Positions 49,708 to 61,683 of a stretch of 64,000 bases of DNA are shown one piece after another. The stretch comes from a bacterium. Its GTDB lineage: Bacteria > Bacteroidota > Ignavibacteria > SZUA-365. The translations under genes and the position numbers were made by a program. The first letter of the stretch is position 1, and every line of letters begins with the position of its first letter. Location: NCBI GenBank assembly GCA_020444325.1, contig JAHLLD010000006.1, positions 124,001 through 188,000 of the forward strand, read 5' to 3'. The notes under the pieces were generated by a model. That model was not told the DNA's origin and ran no database searches. It was given only the letters and a program-made list of their open reading frames with translations.

Positions 49708-50592
49708 CTAGAGTGAGAACACGCGTGAAATATTGAAGCCGAGATGAATCGCGCCGTCTTCCCACCTCCCTGTGGTTTCGCCGATGAATCCGCGTTCAGT
49801 CATCGGCAGTGTGTTGGTCAGCATGATCTGAAAGACGTGTCCCCCTGTTTCAATGTCCGTACCGATGGAAAAGGATTGCAGCGGCTGCGTGACACCGTCG
49901 CGCCCCGGCGTAATGGGAATGAAGTACTCGGCATTGATTGAAACGCGGCTGGTGATCTTGTAGCGCCCACCGAATCCCAGCGCGAACAGGTCGTTCGGAT
50001 CCAGCGCGGTAGGAACGAGATTTCTGTGCACCACAAGTGGCGTGATCTGCAGCGAGAGTTCTTCGGAAAACTTTCGCGCGATAAAGAGCTGAAAGATGTA
50101 GGAGAGACGCGAGGAGAAATAGTTTTCGCGATCAGGATAGCGCCATTTGATGGTCTGATCGTCAATGCCAGCGTAGCCTGAGATGGCGACGGGCATGTTG
50201 ATTTCTCCGGTGGATTGTCTCCAAAGCTTGAACTTCGCAAAGCCGGTATACGCCTTCTGATACGAAGAGCGTCCGATACCCAGCATCAGCCAGTCGGTCA
50301 CCCCGTACTCGAGTCCAAGAAAGATGGTGCTCTGATCGAGTCCCCAGAGTTCCTGTGCGCCGTCGCGCACTTCGCCGAAGCGGTGGTGAATACGGAAATC
50401 GAGCTGCCGCGCTTTCATCTGCTCGATGGAATGACCGTTGATGATGCGCGAGGCCTTGAATGTGGCCGAAGCGTACTCCGTTTTCGGCGTGGTCAGTTCA
50501 TCGAGAAGATTCATGTCATCCTGCGCATGCAGCATCACAGGCAGAAGCAGGACGAGGGCGCATACGATGAAGGAGGAATGGAGAGATCTCAT
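49708..50592 (-). CDS. DUF5777-family outer-membrane beta-barrel protein
   Basis: A 294-residue exported protein: signal SSFIVCALVLLLPVMLHAQ, then ATFKASRIINGHSIEQMKARQLDFRIHHRFGEV, the N-terminal signature of DUF5777 barrels, and amphipathic strands with aromatic belts (GLEYGVTDWLMLGIGRSSYQKAYTGFAKFKL; AEYFIPITPGRDG; LGFNISRVFSL at the end). It is expected in the outer membrane. Its start overlaps the stop of the upstream haem lipoprotein gene (ATGA), so synthesis is coupled. Role unknown; conserved linkage to YceI and haem lipoproteins suggests an electron-transfer or lipid-linked system. Confidence 0.88.
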   Translation of the reverse strand: MRSLHSSFIVCALVLLLPVMLHAQDDMNLLDELTTPKTEYASATFKASRIINGHSIEQMKARQLDFRIHHRFGEVRDGAQELWGLDQSTIFLGLEYGVTDWLMLGIGRSSYQKAYTGFAKFKLWRQSTGEINMPVAISGYAGIDDQTIKWRYPDRENYFSSRLSYIFQLFIARKFSEELSLQITPLVVHRNLVPTALDPNDLFALGFGGRYKITSRVSINAEYFIPITPGRDGVTQPLQSFSIGTDIETGGHVFQIMLTNTLPMTERGFIGETTGRWEDGAIHLGFNISRVFSL

Positions 50593-50993
50593 TGTGCACC
50601 TCCTGCCGTCGTGAAGGGAGAACTGTTGGGTGCGCCCTGGGCGATCCAGATTTCTATGATGCGAATGGAGCAGTCGGGCAATTGGGCGGAATTCTGAGGC
50701 ATCGGGGTGTAACCGGGCTGCCAGTTCACCGCACCGCGGAGCCGATCGAGGTTCTGCTTCACATCGTCATACGCTTCGAGCCTGATATTGCTGCCGAACT
50801 GTGCGGAGTTCGCATTGCTGTGACAGCTGTAGCAGTTCGCTGAGAGGATGGGGACGATGCTTCCGGCAAAGGTCACGTTCGTTGTATCACAGTTGCTGCT
50901 GAGTGATGGGTACAACGCTTCTTCACTGTCATAGTAGCAGCCGGAAAGCAGGAGTCCCGCAGCCAGCGCGAAATAAAGCATTCTGAATTTCAT
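50589..50993 (-). CDS. Small haem lipoprotein (one CXXCH)
   Basis: A 134-residue lipoprotein: MKFRMLYFALAAGLLLSGC (lipobox LSGC), then one haem c motif in VPILSANCYSCHSNANSAQ and a downstream methionine candidate ligand in TPMPQNS. The pattern 'SIVPILSANCYSCHS...ALPDCSIRIIEIWIAQGAP' is that of the small cytochrome c-like domains of Bacteroidota lipoproteins. The start at 50993 gives a clean lipobox. Its stop overlaps the DUF5777 start as ATGA. Confidence 0.88.
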   Translation of the reverse strand: MKFRMLYFALAAGLLLSGCYYDSEEALYPSLSSNCDTTNVTFAGSIVPILSANCYSCHSNANSAQFGSNIRLEAYDDVKQNLDRLRGAVNWQPGYTPMPQNSAQLPDCSIRIIEIWIAQGAPNSSPFTTAGGAQ

Positions 50994-51006
50994 GGTGCCC
51001 ACCTCC

Positions 51007-51384
51007 TCAACTGCCGCAATTGGTATCTGCACCCTGGAGTATCCAGAGCTGAATAATGGTGCGCTGCTCTTGCGTCAGCGGTGGATTGGGCGATGGAGGC
51101 ATGGGATTGATCCATGTACTGGTGATGGCATTGTACAGGCTGCTTTCAAACGGCTTTCCTGGCGTAACATGACGCAGAATCCCTGCGTCACTCCGCAGGT
51201 CGATCTCACCGCCGGCGTGACATCCGCTTTTGGCACAGTTGTTCTGTATGATGGGTTTGACATCGGTCTGGTAGCAAACAGTAGGCTGCTGGTCGACACC
51301 GACCGGATCGTGCTGGCAGGCGGAAGTGGCAAGAAGCAGCGCCACAATGCCTGTGCTGAGAATACCGAAATGTAGACGAGACAT
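51007..51384 (-). CDS. Small haem lipoprotein with CX4CH motif
   Basis: A 125-residue lipoprotein: signal LHFGILSTGIVALLLATSAC (lipobox TSAC). The haem-binding motif is extended: IIQNNCAKSGCHAGG (CX4CH rather than CXXCH), with a methionine candidate ligand in WINPMPPSP. The same 'I.LWI.QGA' ending as the neighbour shows that the two are paralogous domains. It is the first gene of the minus-strand operon down to 48663; about 210 bases separate it from the carbamoyltransferase gene. Confidence 0.87.
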   Translation of the reverse strand: MSRLHFGILSTGIVALLLATSACQHDPVGVDQQPTVCYQTDVKPIIQNNCAKSGCHAGGEIDLRSDAGILRHVTPGKPFESSLYNAITSTWINPMPPSPNPPLTQEQRTIIQLWILQGADTNCGS

Positions 51385-51594: not shown

Positions 51595-53292
51595 TCACTT
51601 GCGCAGGTAAAATGGCCCCAGCGCCATGCTGTCTACTTCAGTCTTGCGAAAGAGATGCAGTGCTTCCTGTGGCGTACGCACGATGGGTTCACCTGCCACG
51701 TTGAGCGAGGTGTTCAGCACCATGCCGTGTCCCGTCATTGTTTTCAGCCGCATGAGCAGCGCGTGCAATGAAGGATTGTCGTCCCGCGTTACCGTCTGCA
51801 GCCGACAGCTGCCGTCGACATGACACACCGCGGGGAACACTTTCCGGTACTGCGGTTTGAAGTAGAATACTTTCAGCATGAATGGGGATATGCCACCGTT
51901 CTCAAAATACTCGTCGACATCCTCCGCGAGAAGTGCAGCGGCAAAAGGACGAAATGGCTCGCGGTGTTTGACCTTGCGGTTCAATATGTCTTTCATGGAT
52001 GGATGGAGTGGAGATGCAAGAATGCTGCGGTTGCCGAGGGCCCTGGGACCAAATTCCATTCGGCCATCAAAGCGCGCAACCACACGACCTGCCACGATAT
52101 CTTCGGAAATCACCTGTGTGATATCATCGGCACGGGAATATGCAGTTTCTGCATAATGGAGTGCGTCCTTCAGTTGCGGTTCATCGAATGACGTCCCGAG
52201 GAATGCATGACGCAATGGAGTACGTCTGAACGTGGGGTCCATTCGGGAGGATACATGCAGCGCCGCTCCGAGAGATACCCCGTTGTCACCGGCAGCCGGC
52301 TGAACGAAAAGATCAGGAGTCATTTCGCGTTGCAGCCTTCCATTGAGGACGGAGTTCAGAAACAATCCGCCGGCGGCTGCCAGGGGACGCGATCCCGCAT
52401 GAGGCAGTTCCCTGCGAAGCAGCGTGAATACCGTTCGCTCGACACAGGACTGCAGGGAACAGGCGAGATCCTGATGCGAAGTGTCCAACTCTTCTCCTCT
52501 CATTCTGGGTTTCATCTTCGTGCGCACGGACCATTCCTCACTGAACTGTCCATGCCGGGCCTGATGATAATCGAGAATTCCCGTCTTCAGGCGAAACCCA
52601 TCTCCGTTCGTTCCCATCGCGCAGGTTTCATCAAAGAGCAGCCGGAACCGGTCCTTTCCGAACGAAGCAAGCGCCATGACTTTCCCCTCGTCACTGGTGG
52701 GCCGAAATCCGAGGAACGCCGTGACCGAAGCATAGAGGTGCCCCAGTGAATGCGGATAGCTGACTGCCATGCGGGTTTGCAGGTCATTGCCGACCCCGGA
52801 GAACAGTGAGAAGGTCGACGATTCGCCAACGCCGTCGGCCACCGCGACGTCTGCTTCTTCGTATGGAGAGGCGAGAAACGCGCTGGCAGCATGTGCGAGA
52901 TGATGGTGCACATAGCGGATGCTGGCCCTGGTCGGACCGAAGCGGGTTTCAAACCCATGCCGCAACCGAATGATATTGCGAATACCCTGAAGATAATTCC
53001 CACCCCTGTGCAGTTTGCTCTGAAGAGCAGAGGGACGGCGCAGACTGTCGCGCAGCGATGCCGAAATGCGTGTCCCCCATCCGAGCCAGGGGTTCCAGCC
53101 GACGGCGATTGCGTCGATGTCGCGCATCTGCATTCCACTGATGCGAAGGCATTCATCCACGGCCAGCCAGGGCATTCCTTCAAAATGCTTGATACGATTC
53201 AGACGCTCTTCTTCCACGGCACAGAGAACTTCCCCACCGGACACCAGCGCTGCTGAAGCATCGCAAAACACACTGAGTCCCAGAATGTTCAT
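51595..53292 (-). CDS. NodU/CmcH-type carbamoyltransferase
   Basis: A 565-residue enzyme of the family that carbamoylates hydroxyl groups of small molecules via a carbamoyl-AMP intermediate. The N-terminal Kae1-like half shows MNILGLSVFCDASAALV, AVEEERLNRIKHFEGMP, RYVHHHLAHAASAFLASPYEEADV and AVADGVGES, with the metal-binding HHHLAHA. The C-terminal half has AAAGGLFLNSVLNGRL, FVQPAAGDNGVSLGAAL, ARFDGRMEFGPRALGNRSILASP and MVLNTSLNVAGEPIV. Length is typical. Its start overlaps the PP-loop gene stop (ATGA), making it the last gene of a four-gene operon with a methyltransferase and an adenylating enzyme. Confidence 0.93.
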   Translation of the reverse strand: MNILGLSVFCDASAALVSGGEVLCAVEEERLNRIKHFEGMPWLAVDECLRISGMQMRDIDAIAVGWNPWLGWGTRISASLRDSLRRPSALQSKLHRGGNYLQGIRNIIRLRHGFETRFGPTRASIRYVHHHLAHAASAFLASPYEEADVAVADGVGESSTFSLFSGVGNDLQTRMAVSYPHSLGHLYASVTAFLGFRPTSDEGKVMALASFGKDRFRLLFDETCAMGTNGDGFRLKTGILDYHQARHGQFSEEWSVRTKMKPRMRGEELDTSHQDLACSLQSCVERTVFTLLRRELPHAGSRPLAAAGGLFLNSVLNGRLQREMTPDLFVQPAAGDNGVSLGAALHVSSRMDPTFRRTPLRHAFLGTSFDEPQLKDALHYAETAYSRADDITQVISEDIVAGRVVARFDGRMEFGPRALGNRSILASPLHPSMKDILNRKVKHREPFRPFAAALLAEDVDEYFENGGISPFMLKVFYFKPQYRKVFPAVCHVDGSCRLQTVTRDDNPSLHALLMRLKTMTGHGMVLNTSLNVAGEPIVRTPQEALHLFRKTEVDSMALGPFYLRK

Positions 53293-53999
53293 ACCCCCAC
53301 CCCCTCTCCAGCGTCAAGCTGCCCGATGGCCTCACCCAATAGCTGTTCCGCCAACCGCGGCATACGTGCTTTGCCGCGAATGGGACGATAGTAGAGACGC
53401 GCGTGCGCATGAATCACGAGTCCAACATAGCAGCTGTGCTGCGTGGAGAAATACACATGTTCCTTTTTCGTGGCATGCATGGTCGCCATCCCCTGGGCTT
53501 CACATTGCAGGTCGGTGTTCTCTTCATCGAATATTACCGCTTCATACTGCATGTTCTGCCTTTCATAGAGCTGCTGCATGACACCGATATATCCCCGGGT
53601 CTGTGCCGGGAACAGCGGTGATGATTCCTTATTGGCACCATCGTAAGTCTGTGCTATCCCATGTTCGCGGTTGTATGCAATCGTCCTGCAATGCATCGCC
53701 AGCTTGCACGATCCACACAGCCAGGGCACGTAAAAGCTGCGGTAGCGCGGGATGCGCCGCTGCCAGTCCGCTCTGTACAGCTGTCGATAGAGCTTCCCGA
53801 TCTCTTCCTCATGAGGAATGATGCGATGCTCGCCAAAGCGCTGCTGCAATTCACGGGTGACGACCTGATGCCGTCCCATGCGGCTCATCAGTCCGTGATG
53901 ATAGGTCAGCAGGTGCACCCTCTCGGCAGACTTCAATGCACGAAGCACCGCCAGTGTAGAATCTGGTCCTCCTGAAAACAGTACGGATATATCACTCAT
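53289..53999 (-). CDS. PP-loop ATP pyrophosphatase (QueC/ExsB-like)
   Basis: A 236-residue protein with the PP-loop motif VLFSGGPDSTLAVLRAL at the N terminus, as in N-type ATP pyrophosphatases that adenylate a carboxyl, carbonyl or nucleobase group. A cysteine cluster LCGSCKLAMHCRTIAYN (residues ~103-119) could be a metal or iron-sulphur site; its spacing differs from classical QueC. Later: IAQTYDGANKESSPLFPAQTRG. The start at 53999 is favoured by GGAGG about 5 bases upstream; a second ATG at 54002 is adjacent and the frame runs far upstream without a signal. Coupled to the carbamoyltransferase by ATGA overlap. Substrate unknown. Confidence 0.87.
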   Translation of the reverse strand: MSDISVLFSGGPDSTLAVLRALKSAERVHLLTYHHGLMSRMGRHQVVTRELQQRFGEHRIIPHEEEIGKLYRQLYRADWQRRIPRYRSFYVPWLCGSCKLAMHCRTIAYNREHGIAQTYDGANKESSPLFPAQTRGYIGVMQQLYERQNMQYEAVIFDEENTDLQCEAQGMATMHATKKEHVYFSTQHSCYVGLVIHAHARLYYRPIRGKARMPRLAEQLLGEAIGQLDAGEGVGV

Positions 54000-54018
54000 C
54001 ATTCCTCCTTCCTGGTTG

Positions 54019-54705
54019 TTATCGGGGATTCTGTCCCTGTTGAGATTGCTGCGCGGTGAGGTGAAGTACGCATGAGGGATTGAGCGGCATGCGGGTACAC
54101 ATATCCACCTCGTACCCGAAGACGTCGCAGCGCCGACGTACTTCCTGCTCATCAAGATAGGCGGCGTTGAAGCCGAGAAGCAGAAGGCCCTGCGGACGCA
54201 GGCGCGGCCTGGCATCAGCGAGCAGGCGCTCAATAAATTCGTAGCCCGATTCCCCGCCACACCAGTCCGTTTCCGAAGGGTGCATGCGGTCTATCTCCCG
54301 CGACCTGCCATCCGCACGCGGAATATACAGTGTGTTTGAAAACACCAGGTCGTACTGCCCGGTAAATGCGGCAAACAGATCGCTCTCGATCACGGACACA
54401 CTGGACGCCGTACCTGCGACTTCCTGGCTGGCGGATTGAACGTACGTGGGATTGATGTCGCCCGCATCCACCGTACATGTGCAGAGGCGCCTGGCGATGC
54501 GCGCAAGCAGCGCATAAGGCCCCGTACCGATCTCCGCGACACGCATTCCGCTGCGCAGGCGCAGGCGCAGTGCACGCTGCAGCACCAGTGTCGTCATGTC
54601 CCAGTGAATCCGTTCACTGCCCTGAAGCCGCACGCCGAAAAGCAATGCCGTAAGCATCGCATTTCTGCGCAGCCCCCTGTTCAACACCTTCCTTGCAAGT
54701 CCCAT
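54019..54705 (-). CDS. HemK/PrmC-like SAM-dependent methyltransferase
   Basis: A 228-residue methyltransferase. The N-terminal helical part (RKVLNRGLRRNAMLTALLFGVRLQGSERIHW) precedes motif I VAEIGTGPYALLARIA and an acidic DAGDINPTYVQSA. The substrate-loop segment reads YDLVFSNTLYIP, resembling the [ND]PPY motif of PrmC-like N-methyltransferases but with NTLY. The C terminus is APLRPQGLLLLGFNA-type. It lies 19 bases upstream of the PP-loop gene start and 95 bases downstream of the large synthetase gene, in the same operon. Target unknown; a pathway intermediate is plausible. Confidence 0.86.
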   Translation of the reverse strand: MGLARKVLNRGLRRNAMLTALLFGVRLQGSERIHWDMTTLVLQRALRLRLRSGMRVAEIGTGPYALLARIARRLCTCTVDAGDINPTYVQSASQEVAGTASSVSVIESDLFAAFTGQYDLVFSNTLYIPRADGRSREIDRMHPSETDWCGGESGYEFIERLLADARPRLRPQGLLLLGFNAAYLDEQEVRRRCDVFGYEVDMCTRMPLNPSCVLHLTAQQSQQGQNPR

Positions 54706-54800
54706 AGCCCGGCCATTCTGATCAACATCCCGCTGTCCACCACGAAAGACACATGAATATCCGGATAATTACCCGGCAATAAAATTTTCCTTCCAACCCC

Positions 54801-57800
54801 TCACTCCGGCGATGCTGCTTCCTCGAGGAGCAGGCGAAATTCCCCGTCACGTGAATCGGCAGTGAATCCTGCATGCATGCAGAATGGTGCGAGGTAATGC
54901 GGCGCGCGAAGCGATTGAATGTCGGAGGCCTTGAGCTGCAGGGCGAGGTCCCGCAGCAGAGCATGCCCATAACCGTTGCCGCGGAGGCTCTGCTCGACGA
55001 TGACCGCCTGCAGCTCAGCTTCGGATGTGGGCAGGACGGAAAATACAGCACCACCAGCGACTCTCTGCCTGTCGTCGATAAGCGCCAGGTATCTCAGGTT
55101 TTCACCTGACGGAACGGGAAGCCGTTCCTGCACAAGCAGGGCGAGAATGCTTCCTGTCTCGGCGGCGGACAGTGGTTCACGAATCAGCATCTCCCCGCTT
55201 CCGGTGGTTTCCATGGGATGCTCGACAACGGCGGATTTTCTTCCCGCGATCTGCGTCCTCACGAGCTGCAGGTCTGCTCCCTCCGCTGCGGGGAACACCA
55301 TGCGTAAAAACTGCTCGCGCATGCCGCCGGCGGGAATCTGCTCCTGCAATTCGGCCAGTTCAACGCTGCGCGTAACGGCGAAACTGCTGTCCCTGTGCAG
55401 GCGCAGGATAAGTTCATCGAGCTGCTGTCCGCAGTCGCCTGGAAGCCCACCGAGCACCGTCCGCCGCGTCACAAACCACCGCGCGGCGGTGCCGTATCGC
55501 ATGACACCATACAGATCGAGCACGTGACGGAGGTAATCCTCCCCGCGTTCCTCCACGAGCAGCGGATACGTGTGCGCCCAATCGCGCCAGCAGGCGACGG
55601 CATTCCGTACCGCAATAGGTGGATTGTAACGCTGTGCACGCTGCTCCAGTTCGTAACGGATCAGTGCGGCAGTCTTCATATCGAGGTGCACTCCACGCGC
55701 ATCCAGCATCTCATCCACATGCTGCAGCAGTTCCGTCGCTTCCTGTTCACCAAGCACCTCAGCGCAGGCATCAATGACCCAGGAAGGCTGCAGGCGGGAT
55801 GTATTCCAGCGCTCTGCCGCACGCCGGAGAATATCAAAGAGTCCTTCAATGAGACAGTGCGTCCCGTCGCAACTCCGCCATCCTTCGACCGAGGCGAGCA
55901 CCGCTCCCTCGCGATAGCGCAACAGTGGTACGATGACATTTTCCGCTTCAATGGCGCCGGGCAGCAGTTCATGACTGCTATCGCGCCAGCCGCGTATCCA
56001 GGCAGACAAACCGGATATCCACCAGCGACGCAGCTCTGCTTCATCGGCCTGCGCCGCACCGCGATCCATAAACTCCGCCAGGCTGCGACCCGCAGATTCC
56101 GCGAGAGCAATGGCCCCTGCTTCCGGCATGAAGCTCCCGAAGCGCGGGAGCGCTGCATGGCGCACAGGAGCACCGGAAATCCGCAGAAGCCGCAGCACAT
56201 CCTCGTGCATCGCTTTCTCGCGGTAGCGGTCATCGAGCAGGAGACGGAAGGTAAATCTTCTCCCCGTGCGTGTCTGCAATATGACGCGGAAAGATCGCGA
56301 GCCGCTTCTGGACGAAGGCAGCGCTTCAATCAGGATCTGATCGAGCACCATCGCTTCCGAACCGAGTCCGTCAATACCGAAAAGCATGAGAACCGTAAGG
56401 GAGAGAAACGGCGTCTCAGCGAGCAATACGCGCAGCCGATCACGATCCGCGCCGGCGGCGTCCGGCATTGCATCAAGCGCAGCATCGAGCAGGTGCAGGA
56501 GACTGTCACGTCTGGTGGATGACGCTTCCTGCCTGCGGACGTAGACATCCTTCAGCGCATAGAACAACTCTCCTGCCCTGTCACGCATCTCATCGATCTG
56601 CATCCACAGCGCCAGTTCCGCGCGCACGTCGTAGACGAAGGACGCATCCCGCGCGGCCAGGCGGTAGAGGAGCACGAGAAGATGGTTGTACACGCGTTGT
56701 TCCGCTGCAGAGGGATGCGGCTGCTGCTGACGGTAACTGTGCAGACGGCGGCGCAGAGCTGCCAGCCGCTCACCGCGCATGTCGGGCGAAGCGATACGGT
56801 CGAGGGCGGGACCATCGAGGAAACTGCGCTCGGACCGCATGAACGCATTGTACGGTGCGGCATCCTCTGGCATTGGATCGAACAGCAACAGTGTTTCGTA
56901 GGCGCGGATGCGCACGGCCTCATCCGGATGCCAGGCACAGGCACCGAGGCGTTTGCGGAGCAGGGACAGATGCCGGTGCGGTATCGACTCAAGCGCGGCG
57001 CCGAGATCATCGAAGAGCTGCAGTGCCAGAGGGGAATCCGCAGTGAAGGTAATGGACAGCATGCGATGCAGCTGCTGCAGCACGGTGCCGATACTGGCCT
57101 TCGACGACGCGTCCACTCCCACCTCGGTGCGATCAGCGCCGTCCGACATACGCACAGCATCGACAGGCCATTGCAGCGGGATCACCGCTTCGACTTCATC
57201 GAGCGGGACATCCCACCCCTCGTGACAGGGGAGGAAACCGGTCAATGCTGCATTCCCTGTCCAACCATACGGCTGCCTGCAGAGGCGTCCGAGATCCACG
57301 GTCGCCGAACGCAGCTGGTATTCGAGATCACCAATTCGCCAGTGTCCCTCATTCCTTCCGGCCGCGACGGGGAGCAGTGCGCGGGTGGCCGCGTTATAGA
57401 GTCCCTCAGGACGCAGTTGCAAATCCCGTTCAGTGCACCCGAGATCCCGCAGCATCCACAACGGCAGACGCAGGCGCAGGCCGGCAATCTCGAAGCGCAG
57501 CGCGCGTTCCTGGTACATGCGCGCGATCTCCGCACTGTAGTTCTCCCTGATGCGCTTTCGATTGAGCGAGCCCTTGGGCGTGAGCTCACCGCGGGATTCG
57601 GAAAAGTCTTCATCGAGCAGCGTGAATTCGAGAATGCGTTCGTATACGGGAAGCTCCCTGTTCACGGCACGGATGATCTCGTTGAAATATCGCTCCCGCT
57701 GCTGCGTGGAGGCAAGCTTTTCGAGAATGGGAGCGGACGCATCGAGAACGATCAGCAGAGTATTATGCGCGCGTCCATCACCGGCCAGGAAACAACGCCT

Positions 57801-59369
57801 GATGCCGGGCACATCCTGAAAACGGTTCTCGACCGCCAGAGGAGCAATGGTCTGTCCCCTGCTGTTCTTGTAGATATCCTTCACACGGTCAACAATGCGG
57901 TAATGCCCGCTCTCACTCTGTGCGAACAGGTCGCCTGTTGGAATCCACCGTCCATGCAGCGACTCCCCATCCCCGGATTCTTCCGACACCTCGGTTGCGT
58001 TTTCCAGCGGAGTGGCCACGTAGGGACCGCGCATTTCCATCTCGCAGTTTTCGCGCAGGCGCACGTCGATGCCGGGCAGAGGGATGCCGACGGAGTCGGC
58101 TTCATACGCACCGGGCGGTGTCATGAGTATGCCGCCTGTCGCTTCCGTCATTCCGAAACCACTGCCGAGCGCCACACCATGCTGATGGAAGTAGCGAAAG
58201 ACCGATGGACTCAGGTACCCGGCTGCCGAGAGTCCCCAGCGCAATTTCCCTCCACAGGCCGCAGCAAGCGTATCGAAGCGGTCCGCTTCCTCCCGCAGCT
58301 CGACCCAGCGCTGGGGGATGCTGATCAGTCCTGTCGGCTGCACCTCGCGCATACGTGCGAACAGTGCTTCACGACCGGAACTGCCGACGAACACGTATCG
58401 TCCTCCCCAGAACAGCATGCCCTGCAGTTCGAGAAAACGTCCGAAGGTATGAAACAGCGGCAGGTAAGCGGCGAGCGTTTCATCGTCGCCGACATCAGGC
58501 AGCGCCGCCGCGCGCGCGAAGCGCTTGCTCACCATGTTCATCTGCGAGAAGGCAACGCCTTTGGGGAGTCCGGTAGAACCCGAAGTAAACATGACGGTCG
58601 AAGTACCCGTATACGGAATGTCCCTTGCCGATTGCCCGCCTTCGCCAACCGGCAGACTCCTTTCCCGGTTTTTGGCGATGAAGGCATCGAACAGTTCGAC
58701 ACCTTGCTCTTCCGGATTTCCCGCGCCGATGAACACGGGGAGCAGCTCGAGTCCGTATTCCGCCATGACGCGGAGCAGGAGCCGCAGCCGCTCGTTGGTG
58801 TCGACGAACACGAGGTTGATACGGAGCTGCTGCAGAATGGACGCAAGCGATGACTCGTCGAGATGCACGCTCAGTGGCGTATTGAGAATGCCATGTACCA
58901 GGCAGGACAGATCGCACAGTGCTCCTTCAAGCGAATTGGCGGTGAAGAGTGCGACACGGGGATGCGTCCCCGGTGTCCCTGCACGCATTGCATGCGCAAT
59001 GATACCGCATTGTTTCTCCACCTGAGCGAAACTCAGTCTGCGTCTCTCGCCGTCTCCCTCCTCGAGGTAACAGGCGGTCCCATGACTGCGTGCACGGTCG
59101 GCTAGCAGATCTCCCACCCCATAGCGGAGCCGGAGCAGGACCGCGCGCACCGTCTTTTCATAAATACCGTATCGTTGTTCCTGGGTGAGCGCGCACCGGA
59201 ATTCCGCGCCCGCAGCGGCGGAAAGGAATTCGCGCAGCGCCGCATTCAAACGATCCGTCGCATTGAAATGCGGGAGGGCGGAGTGGATCAGGTTCAGCAT
59301 ACGAGCTGGAATATCCGGATCCCGCTGCCGCTGATATTGCTGAAGGAGGTCCTCAATCGCTGCGGGCAT
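54801..59369 (-). CDS. Adenylate-forming synthetase fused to an unassigned helical middle and a GNAT acetyltransferase
   Basis: A 1,522-residue cytosolic protein. Residues ~85-620 are an AMP-binding (acyl-CoA synthetase-like) domain: VMFTSGSTGLPKGV (261-272), GSGFGMTEATGG, GRWIPTGDLF, YRIVDRVKDIYKNSRGQ and late lysine KGSLNRKRI. Residues ~620-1370 are mostly helical with HEAT-like pieces and no domain I recognise; the part LQTRTGRRFTFRLLLDD...DVLRLLRI...PEAENVIVPLLRY could be a degenerate kinase-like fold, a weak guess. Residues ~1380-1522 are a GNAT domain (VIVEQSLRGNGYGHALLRDLA, acetyl-CoA loop). No carrier protein domain is seen. It leads an operon with a methyltransferase, PP-loop enzyme and carbamoyltransferase. 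Confidence 0.88.
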   Translation of the reverse strand: MPAAIEDLLQQYQRQRDPDIPARMLNLIHSALPHFNATDRLNAALREFLSAAAGAEFRCALTQEQRYGIYEKTVRAVLLRLRYGVGDLLADRARSHGTACYLEEGDGERRRLSFAQVEKQCGIIAHAMRAGTPGTHPRVALFTANSLEGALCDLSCLVHGILNTPLSVHLDESSLASILQQLRINLVFVDTNERLRLLLRVMAEYGLELLPVFIGAGNPEEQGVELFDAFIAKNRERSLPVGEGGQSARDIPYTGTSTVMFTSGSTGLPKGVAFSQMNMVSKRFARAAALPDVGDDETLAAYLPLFHTFGRFLELQGMLFWGGRYVFVGSSGREALFARMREVQPTGLISIPQRWVELREEADRFDTLAAACGGKLRWGLSAAGYLSPSVFRYFHQHGVALGSGFGMTEATGGILMTPPGAYEADSVGIPLPGIDVRLRENCEMEMRGPYVATPLENATEVSEESGDGESLHGRWIPTGDLFAQSESGHYRIVDRVKDIYKNSRGQTIAPLAVENRFQDVPGIRRCFLAGDGRAHNTLLIVLDASAPILEKLASTQQRERYFNEIIRAVNRELPVYERILEFTLLDEDFSESRGELTPKGSLNRKRIRENYSAEIARMYQERALRFEIAGLRLRLPLWMLRDLGCTERDLQLRPEGLYNAATRALLPVAAGRNEGHWRIGDLEYQLRSATVDLGRLCRQPYGWTGNAALTGFLPCHEGWDVPLDEVEAVIPLQWPVDAVRMSDGADRTEVGVDASSKASIGTVLQQLHRMLSITFTADSPLALQLFDDLGAALESIPHRHLSLLRKRLGACAWHPDEAVRIRAYETLLLFDPMPEDAAPYNAFMRSERSFLDGPALDRIASPDMRGERLAALRRRLHSYRQQQPHPSAAEQRVYNHLLVLLYRLAARDASFVYDVRAELALWMQIDEMRDRAGELFYALKDVYVRRQEASSTRRDSLLHLLDAALDAMPDAAGADRDRLRVLLAETPFLSLTVLMLFGIDGLGSEAMVLDQILIEALPSSRSGSRSFRVILQTRTGRRFTFRLLLDDRYREKAMHEDVLRLLRISGAPVRHAALPRFGSFMPEAGAIALAESAGRSLAEFMDRGAAQADEAELRRWWISGLSAWIRGWRDSSHELLPGAIEAENVIVPLLRYREGAVLASVEGWRSCDGTHCLIEGLFDILRRAAERWNTSRLQPSWVIDACAEVLGEQEATELLQHVDEMLDARGVHLDMKTAALIRYELEQRAQRYNPPIAVRNAVACWRDWAHTYPLLVEERGEDYLRHVLDLYGVMRYGTAARWFVTRRTVLGGLPGDCGQQLDELILRLHRDSSFAVTRSVELAELQEQIPAGGMREQFLRMVFPAAEGADLQLVRTQIAGRKSAVVEHPMETTGSGEMLIREPLSAAETGSILALLVQERLPVPSGENLRYLALIDDRQRVAGGAVFSVLPTSEAELQAVIVEQSLRGNGYGHALLRDLALQLKASDIQSLRAPHYLAPFCMHAGFTADSRDGEFRLLLEEAASPE

Positions 59370-59433: not shown

Positions 59434-61515
59434 TTAATGCCTAATGAGACAACGCGCAGTTTGCATTCCCCACGTCCCTTGCAGCACAACAAGGTATAAT
59501 CCACTGTCCCATGACTCTGTCGTGAGGGAAATGATGGCATTGCCGTCCACCGTCCGCTGTGCCACGCAACGACCTGAAATATCAAACACGGTGATTGATC
59601 TTCCCCGGGATGCGAAATCGCGGACGTCGAGTTGCAGGATATCATCGGCCGGCTGTGGATGCAGTGAAAGCTCAGGCAGCTGATGATGTTGCGGCACACG
59701 CGGAACCGCTGTCGAGCCGTCCAGTTTTCGTCGGTAGAATCCACCTCGCGAGGGACTTGCGTATATCCACCCGTCATGGACCGTCAGGAGCCGTGCATCG
59801 CGGGAATCTGGAAGTCCTTCATCCCATGCATACCAGGGCCCCATATGATCATCAAGTCGTGACAACCTGATGTCTTCCCCGGTCGCAAAGATCTGTTTCC
59901 CATGTGAGAGAATCGACCGTACCTGACCTCCCTCTGCTGGTGCGATACCAAGTGGTTCCCACGGTTCGCTGTCGTTTGATTTCCAGTAAATCCAGTTTTG
60001 ATGGGCGTTCGGCCCCTGGAAACCGATGTATACACCGAAGGGATCGCTCCATGATACATATGCCTCTTCGCTTGGGAGACCCTCACGATCAGTTTGCCAG
60101 GTACTCCCGCCGTCAACTGACCGCACAACATGCCGACCGCAGCTGTAGTATGTAGATTCGAGACTGCGTACTGCGTCAGGATAAAAGCCGAACGGAACGT
60201 CTCCGGATCTCCAACTGGATCCCATATCGGTAGAATACCCGATGAAGTTTTGTGCCGCCGCAAACAGCACGCCATTGTGTACTGATAGATGCGCTTCAGA
60301 AACAGCATCCAATTCTTCCATGCGTTCCCAGGATTTTCCGGCGTCGTCTGACTTCCAGTATCCCGCAAATTTCGTTGCATACAGGAGTGATGAACCGACG
60401 GCAAGAAGCTGACTAGCCTCCTCAGATGCTGGAGTTCCAAACGGACCAGGCCGGAGCCACTCCCATATGCCTTCTTTCTTTGTGTAGATTCCCGGTTGCC
60501 CGCGCATCGCGATGAACCTATCATTTCCTACCCAGGCCACACTACTCACGCTGTTGGGAGATGTGGTCCCGAATTTCCAATGCACCCCGTAATCGTCCGA
60601 CAGCAACACTCCGGGGCCGTTCAAGGACAGCGCAATGCGATCGCCGATGATAACGCCATCAAAGACATTTACGCGACTGAGTCCGAATGTCTCAGCATGA
60701 AACGTCTCCCCTCCATCCAGGCTAATGTGCGGATTGTATGCGCCTCCTGCTATCACAATTGAATCTGTCACAGTAAGGGCGGTCCAGATACTGTACGCAA
60801 ACTGAATTGGAGCACGAGTCCAATTCTTCCCATCCTCCGACCTGATCAGTCCCCCAGTCTCTTCGGTCGCGAAAAGATAGCGACTGTTCGCGGCGATGCG
60901 AAAGATAGGTAAGCCTGAGGGACTGTTCGAGAACAGTTCCCACCTCCCATTCTTGTACATATAAAACAACCCGAACCTGGATCCGGCTACAGGACGGCCG
61001 CGAAACATCGTAATGGTGAACATCAGCCTTTCACTGTCAAGCCCTTCCCCACTGTTTTTCCAGACTTTGCCGGATGGGTCTGTCGAGAGCAGTACACCCT
61101 GTTTGGAGGTAGGTATGAAGACGGTATCCTGATGGACGAGAACATGGAATGCCTCGAAGCCATCATGGACCTTCTTCCACACGCGTTCTGAGTAATCAAA
61201 GCACCAGAGTGAAGTACTGCATGTGGAAAAATGCCGTGCAAGAACCCAGTTCTGTGCAAATGCGTGATAGAAGCGCAAATCATGGAAATCCCATTCCTGA
61301 GGTTCATGTTGCGGAAACCAATTGTCTCCCCTGTCTGGTGAGTACTGCCCACGAACCGTCAGTGTGTCACCAACACAAAGGATGCTGGTGAACGAGCCCC
61401 CGGGAGGAACATCAAGTTTGGTCCACTGGCCTGATGACTGCGCGGACACATTACATGGAGTGAGGATTATCGCGATTACGATCGTGAGAAAGAGAGTGGA
61501 TGCAATCCTGTACAT
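59434..61515 (-). CDS. Secreted BNR/sortilin-like repeat protein with type IX sorting domain
   Basis: A 693-residue exported protein. The start at 61515 (MYRIASTLFLTIVIAIILTPCNVSAQ) gives the signal; GGGGGG lies just upstream. Beta-propeller repeats follow with Asp-box-like pieces (SLDGGETFHAE, SDDYGVHWKFG, SDDAGKSWERM, STDMGSSWRSG, SVDGGSTWQTD), as in sialidase/BNR or photosystem-II stability-factor-like proteins. The C terminus is a sorting domain (SLHPQPADDILQLDV...VFDISGRCVAQR...WDSGLYLVVLQG). No sialidase active-site set is evident. It is separated by a short gap from the large synthetase gene and is probably transcribed on its own. Confidence 0.88.
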   Translation of the reverse strand: MYRIASTLFLTIVIAIILTPCNVSAQSSGQWTKLDVPPGGSFTSILCVGDTLTVRGQYSPDRGDNWFPQHEPQEWDFHDLRFYHAFAQNWVLARHFSTCSTSLWCFDYSERVWKKVHDGFEAFHVLVHQDTVFIPTSKQGVLLSTDPSGKVWKNSGEGLDSERLMFTITMFRGRPVAGSRFGLFYMYKNGRWELFSNSPSGLPIFRIAANSRYLFATEETGGLIRSEDGKNWTRAPIQFAYSIWTALTVTDSIVIAGGAYNPHISLDGGETFHAETFGLSRVNVFDGVIIGDRIALSLNGPGVLLSDDYGVHWKFGTTSPNSVSSVAWVGNDRFIAMRGQPGIYTKKEGIWEWLRPGPFGTPASEEASQLLAVGSSLLYATKFAGYWKSDDAGKSWERMEELDAVSEAHLSVHNGVLFAAAQNFIGYSTDMGSSWRSGDVPFGFYPDAVRSLESTYYSCGRHVVRSVDGGSTWQTDREGLPSEEAYVSWSDPFGVYIGFQGPNAHQNWIYWKSNDSEPWEPLGIAPAEGGQVRSILSHGKQIFATGEDIRLSRLDDHMGPWYAWDEGLPDSRDARLLTVHDGWIYASPSRGGFYRRKLDGSTAVPRVPQHHQLPELSLHPQPADDILQLDVRDFASRGRSITVFDISGRCVAQRTVDGNAIISLTTESWDSGLYLVVLQGTWGMQTARCLIRH

Positions 61516-61683
61516 GGTTACCCCCCTGTAGGTGTAGAAATTTTCAACCCTGTCCGCTGTGAACTTCAACACGCGACTGAATCATTAGTTACAGCGTTGT
61601 CACTCGAGAGCGTTCTGGTTCAGGAAGGAATAGATCGAGCGCCGCACGAACAAGTACTTATTAACGGGTACTCAGGGGAAGGG

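Follow-up and report, generated by a model that had tools for sequence, protein, structure and literature searches.

A methyltransferase, a PP-loop enzyme and a carbamoyltransferase without its general base as a candidate three-gene tailoring module in Ignavibacteria

We examined four adjacent minus-strand genes in a 64,000-nucleotide stretch of a bacterial genome from the class Ignavibacteria (lineage SZUA-365; assembly GCA_020444325.1, contig JAHLLD010000006.1, positions 124,001 to 188,000), referred to below as the window. From upstream to downstream they encode a very large protein with AMP-forming ligase and GNAT domains (the megaprotein), a HemK-like S-adenosylmethionine (SAM) methyltransferase (MT), a PP-loop enzyme and a class III carbamoyltransferase (CT). 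We put at about one half the probability that the last three genes are a self-contained module for small-molecule tailoring and that the upstream AMP-ligase/GNAT gene is separate from it. The probable role of the trio is to assemble a single unusual chemical group on a small molecule, and we found no paper or cluster in the literature that describes this gene set.

The trio is a rare, portable three-gene set that occurs in two versions, in which the same three roles are filled using two different PP-loop enzymes. The version present in the window (type A) is tightly linked in four genomes from two phyla, namely the window genome (G000), a member of the same genus (G004, locus L030), a member of another family of the class (G464, L049) and a member of Zixiibacteria (G322, split between L045 and L031). 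Identities to the window proteins range from 38% for the MT to 68% for the PP-loop protein, and the genes flanking the trio differ in each genome. The PP-loop profile matched 3 of 391 genomes in the class, 1 of 396 in the phylum and, in the phylum to which the Zixiibacteria genome belongs, 1 of 39, these and our other searches being based on overlapping genome draws. A search of 381 class genomes for the MT family returned six matches, five of which lie in trios. Three of these are of type A (window, G004 and G464), and the other two, from G097 and G006, belong to type B trios, in which a related MT and a NodU-type CT are tightly linked to a different, WbuX-like PP-loop protein; the sixth is from G565. 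The order of the type B genes is MT, PP-loop, CT in G097 (L062 8568-12132) and MT, CT, PP-loop in G006 (L061 2-3642), and their MTs are related to that of the window (for G097, 31% identity over 187 residues, E = 3e-27). When a profile of all six MTs was used across the phylum, only the window and G097 scored strongly; we infer that the remaining matches (1e-19 to 1e-15) are PrmC-type enzymes. That the trio recurs with YcfA-like as well as WbuX-like PP-loop proteins is an argument for a single substrate on which all three activities work.

The preliminary description of this locus had treated all four genes as one operon that could form one pathway, in which the AMP-ligase/GNAT protein would provide an acyl group. 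The megaprotein and MT genes do lie on the same strand, the 95-base gap between them contains no promoter- or terminator-like match, and G006 has a type B trio as well as a megaprotein, on different contigs. Against this, gene neighborhoods show the megaprotein without an adjoining trio in five genomes (G003, G006, G008, G009 and, more distantly related, G023), where none of the three trio genes lies next to it in the stretches read, and the megaprotein is missing from all three other type A trio genomes (G004, G464 and G322). No relative has all four genes together. We therefore reject the four-gene operon and consider the corresponding four-gene pathway very improbable; the upstream gene is most likely an independent neighbor of the trio. 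What survives of the proposed compact tailoring pathway lacking a carrier protein is its three downstream genes, which are co-conserved and recur with an alternative PP-loop partner, while the megaprotein drops out of it.

The megaprotein belongs to a family of proteins of about 1500-1580 amino acids (in addition to the window, L032, L033, L034, L035, L036 and L037), consisting of an N-terminal AMP-forming ligase, a middle of roughly 800 residues and a C-terminal GNAT domain, and it stands alone in the five relatives. The middle contains the conserved motifs FGSFMPEAGAI and GAIEAENVIVP. A single-sequence fold of residues 960-1420, which cover part of the middle and the C-terminal region, was unusable (pLDDT 46). 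Judging by its domains, the megaprotein by itself is probably an acyl-activating N-acyltransferase that would combine acyl activation and N-acyl transfer in one protein.

The window CT can be aligned over its full length with class III enzymes of solved structure, and both of its domains, Carbam_trans_N and Carbam_trans_C, score far above the family cut-offs (168 and 216 bits versus 24 and 27). It shares with the class III enzymes TobZ, GdmN and NodU the HHH..HA metal site and the GPRALGNRS, KHRE.FRPFA and NTS.N motifs, and its aligned metal ligands H130/H131, H134, D153 and D336 (GdmN counterparts H133, H137, D156 and D333) are invariant. In GdmN, His27 deprotonates the hydroxyl acceptor, the H27N variant is inactive, and the residue was termed universally conserved in its subclade by the authors (PMC9633730). 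The window CT differs from the known enzymes at this column, where it has Cys10, so that the general-base histidine expected of a class III O-carbamoyltransferase with a hydroxyl acceptor is lacking. The histidine is lost in all six trio CTs, being replaced by Ser in G004, Val in G322, Ala in G464 and Gln in G097 and deleted in G006, whereas each of the 11 CTs from relatives used for comparison keeps a His at this column or the next one. In a tree with these 11 other CTs the four type A proteins cluster together (support 100/100). The TsaD protein encoded in the window genome also has a Cys at the general-base site (LGIESSCDE versus LGLSVFCDA, a gapless match made by eye), and the TsaD family moves a carbamoyl-type group onto an adenosine amine. 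Carbamoylation of a lysine amine by a NodU-like enzyme has also been reported (PMC13174530). From these observations we infer that the acceptor of the trio CTs needs no base and is most likely an amine. The loss, with unrelated residues or a deletion in its place, could also mean that the CT is dead or a mere carbamoyl-AMP hydrolase or regulator, leaving thiolation or amination plus methylation as the chemistry of the trio; full-length trio members keep the metal ligands and the C-domain motifs (GARALG instead of GPRALG in type B), as expected of an active enzyme, and we regard such a loss of function as most improbable.

The PP-loop protein of the type A trios is related to enzymes of 6-thioguanine biosynthesis. 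A profile built from three sequences matched YcfA of Erwinia amylovora at 1.4e-12 and QueC at 2.9e-4, and in Foldseek searches with an AlphaFold2 model YcfA, including its GTP complexes, was the closest of the solved folds (E = 1e-8; QueC 7.6e-6). Membership in the QueC/preQ0 synthase family was rejected, the TIGR00364 score being 22 bits versus a cut-off of 150. Among the best plasmid relatives is a TgsB-like protein whose operon has the gene order of the published 6-thioguanine tgs operon (PMC7994395). The PP-loop with its Asp and the K-x-A-x-H...DG...Q residues are common to the window protein, TgsB-type proteins and YcfA. Unlike the two TgsB-type proteins aligned, from which the CxxC...C pattern is absent, the window protein has three cysteines, C96, C99 and C191, that are invariant in 4/4 type A proteins; it is accompanied in the genome by an MT and a CT, not by desulfurase, NUDIX and HAD proteins. 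A CxxC-C arrangement is a signature of the LarE, TtuA and MnmA-type iron-sulfur (Fe-S) sulfur insertases (PMC9283937, PMC8584467). The window protein resembles such enzymes (TtuA, TtcA and Fe-S LarE) in combining a PP-loop, a CxxC and a distal Cys, and differs from them in lacking close sequence kinship and RNA-binding domains; the cluster it may bind is putative.

These relationships raise the alternative that the trio is a purine or nucleoside antimetabolite pathway, in which the PP-loop enzyme would thiolate a purine nucleotide in the manner of YcfA/TgsB, with decoration of the base by the MT and by a TsaD-like CT directed at amines. The YcfA fold with its GTP complexes, the shared residues, the nearest plasmid relative in a tgs-like operon and the TsaD-like Cys at the base position of the CT are all in its favor, but identity to YcfA/TgsB is only about 22-30%, no desulfurase, NUDIX, phosphatase or exporter gene is found nearby, and type B uses a sugar-amidotransferase-like PP-loop protein instead, which makes this pathway unlikely. 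On the plasmid of Staphylococcus chromogenes DSM 20454 (L040 6825-11113) we observed an operon in tgs gene order, and a plasmid of Alicyclobacillus acidoterrestris (L041 10001-12711) carries a shorter tgs-like version (PP-loop, NUDIX, DMT, HAD) whose PP-loop genes are annotated as hypothetical.

The PP-loop proteins of the type B trios align with that of the window only over the PP-loop stretch (BLASTP, E = 0.007) and match WbuX, an N-acetyl sugar amidotransferase, at about half the cut-off; the window protein itself falls outside that family. This match suggests another alternative, namely glycan tailoring, in which the trio would modify an amino sugar of a surface polysaccharide (carbamoyl, amidine or guanidine, N-methyl). 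It agrees with the sugar substrates of NodU and TobZ, with a GT2 glycosyltransferase gene following the G464 trio, and with the lone MT relative in G565 (L063 1869-2576), a divergent MT whose surrounding glycan cluster also encodes a radical SAM protein, a bactoprenyl-type sugar transferase and a DegT-type aminotransferase, on a short contig that contains no CT or PP-loop gene. The window, G004, G322, G006 and G097 trios, however, have no adjoining glycan genes in the stretches read, HisH/HisF-type ammonia partners are lacking, and the WbuX scores remain well below the cut-off. We consider glycan tailoring doubtful, if somewhat less so than the purine pathway.

The MT of the trio resembles the HemK/PrmC N5-glutamine methyltransferases in its SAM fold, its GTG motif and the GG..G that follows motif IV, but it remains below the family cut-offs (TIGR03534, 55 bits versus 199). 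In HemK-type enzymes an NPPY-type motif binds the planar nitrogen. The trio MTs depart from this motif, type A having N-x-[L/V]-Y-I-P (NTLY, NAVY or NSVY in place of NPPY) and type B NAPYI, and by analogy with HemK a planar acceptor is plausible.

Returning to the reading of the trio as a tailoring module, the following chemistry can be proposed. The CT would make carbamoyl-AMP and hand the carbamoyl on to a nucleophile reactive enough without a base, most likely an amine, yielding a ureido group. The PP-loop enzyme would then adenylate the C=O of the carbamoyl-derived group, of a neighboring amide or of a nucleobase, and would swap the oxygen for sulfur, by an Fe-S mechanism with CxxC...C like that of TtuA or LarE, or for nitrogen. 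The planar nitrogen or sulfur that results would be methylated by the HemK-like MT. A sugar or a nucleotide is the probable substrate, with circumstantial support in both directions (WbuX kinship and some glycan neighbors for the former, YcfA kinship for the latter); the order of the steps, the exact substrate and the choice between sulfur and nitrogen are guesses. As a tentative possibility, then, this may be a portable three-enzyme pathway in which PP-loop enzymes are interchangeable, and in which a NodU-type N-carbamoyltransferase without the base, a PP-loop enzyme and an MT together equip a common metabolite with an N-methylated guanidine or (thio)urea. If the module reading is right, three genes would be a minimal route to an unusual functional group, and CTs with non-hydroxyl acceptors could be picked out by a sequence rule, the loss of the general-base His. 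Since the recurrence with either PP-loop protein argues for a single substrate, the function of the trio is testable with three small genes.

Several observations weigh against this interpretation. Only six trios were found, and the CT of G322 carries an in-frame TAA between its two domains (L031, about 1869-1871), which may reflect decay or a sequencing error. The MT is without NPPY, so its acceptor may differ. The YcfA kinship of the PP-loop protein comes from sequence-derived evidence on few sequences, and the model of this protein is of moderate quality (pLDDT 66.5, and below 50 around C191). In the stretches read, none of the six trios is accompanied by the PLP desulfurase, NUDIX and HAD genes of YcfA/TgsB operons, and the kinship of the type B PP-loop proteins to sugar amidotransferases favors nitrogen over sulfur. 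In the type B proteins, too, a CxxC lies about as far from the PP-loop and a distal Cys aligns, and the CxxC...C pattern alone therefore cannot choose sulfur over nitrogen.

Other interpretations of the trio were considered and rejected. For an anti-phage system, PADLOC gave only a methyltransferase-domain match to mad2, and the PP-loop protein had no relatives in phages or on viral contigs. For a ribosomally synthesized and post-translationally modified peptide, the 900-base flanks of four trios contained no convincing common small open reading frame, the best pairs resembling chance matches between GC-rich frames. A plasmid-borne trio was discarded as well, as neither the MTs nor the CT clade of the window had a plasmid match at the thresholds used. 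Among plasmid CTs similar to that of type B, no PP-loop protein is annotated alongside in the four records inspected, and in one of the four a methyltransferase adjoins the CT. On the megaplasmid of Mycetohabitans rhizoxinica (L064 6001-13689), a NodU-type CT gene overlaps a methyltransferase gene, followed by a large amino-acid adenylation gene.

The features of the locus are listed in Table 1. The four same-strand genes, their junctions and their enzyme motifs are as first described, the open reading frames are present, and curated profiles confirmed, with matches far above chance, that the motifs are parts of real domains: AMP-binding (1.2e-44), AMP-binding_C_3 (3.7e-11) and GNAT (1.3e-4) in the megaprotein, small-domain methyltransferase (2.8e-6) in the MT, QueC/PP-loop (2.5e-6) in the PP-loop protein, and Carbam_trans_C (3.7e-64) and Carbam_trans_N (3.8e-49) in the CT. 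The PP-loop reading frame has two adjacent candidate ATG codons, at 54002 or 53999, which place it 16 or 19 bases from the MT gene, and it joins the CT gene through an ATGA overlap.

Table 1. Features of the locus, in positions of the window.
Feature	Position	Strand	Basis
AMP-forming ligase / unknown middle / GNAT megaprotein, 1522 amino acids	54801..59369	minus	Probably outside the module: no trio beside relatives' copies, trios without megaprotein
HemK-like SAM methyltransferase (MT), 228 amino acids, first trio gene	54019..54705	minus	Family matches below cut-offs; kept in 6/6 trios
MT motif IV NTLYIP (HemK: NPPYIP)	54319..54336	minus	Alignment of type A and type B members
YcfA/TgsB-like PP-loop enzyme, 237 amino acids (236 if start 53999)	53289..54002	minus	Profile and fold searches, alignment with TgsB-type proteins
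CxxC (C96, C99) of PP-loop protein	53706..53717	minus	Invariant in 4 type A proteins, absent from 2 TgsB-type proteins
Third invariant Cys (C191) of PP-loop protein	53430..53432	minus	Type A alignment
Class III (NodU/TobZ-type) carbamoyltransferase (CT), 565 amino acids, without general-base His	51595..53292	minus	Domain profiles, alignments, tree
Codon of CT Cys10, at GdmN His27 position	53263..53265	minus	Gapless N-terminal alignment with GdmN

The GC content of the cassette tracks that of the host, with 57.0 versus 55.9% in the window and 36.3 versus 38.0% in G464. Downstream of the CT gene (50589-51384) there are two small lipoprotein-like open reading frames with haem-type Cys/His motifs (NCYSCHSN and NCAKSGCHAG), the second of which has no Pfam match. 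Upstream of the megaprotein gene (59434-61572), the window encodes a BNR-repeat protein with a Por secretion-system sorting tail, which is unrelated to the module.

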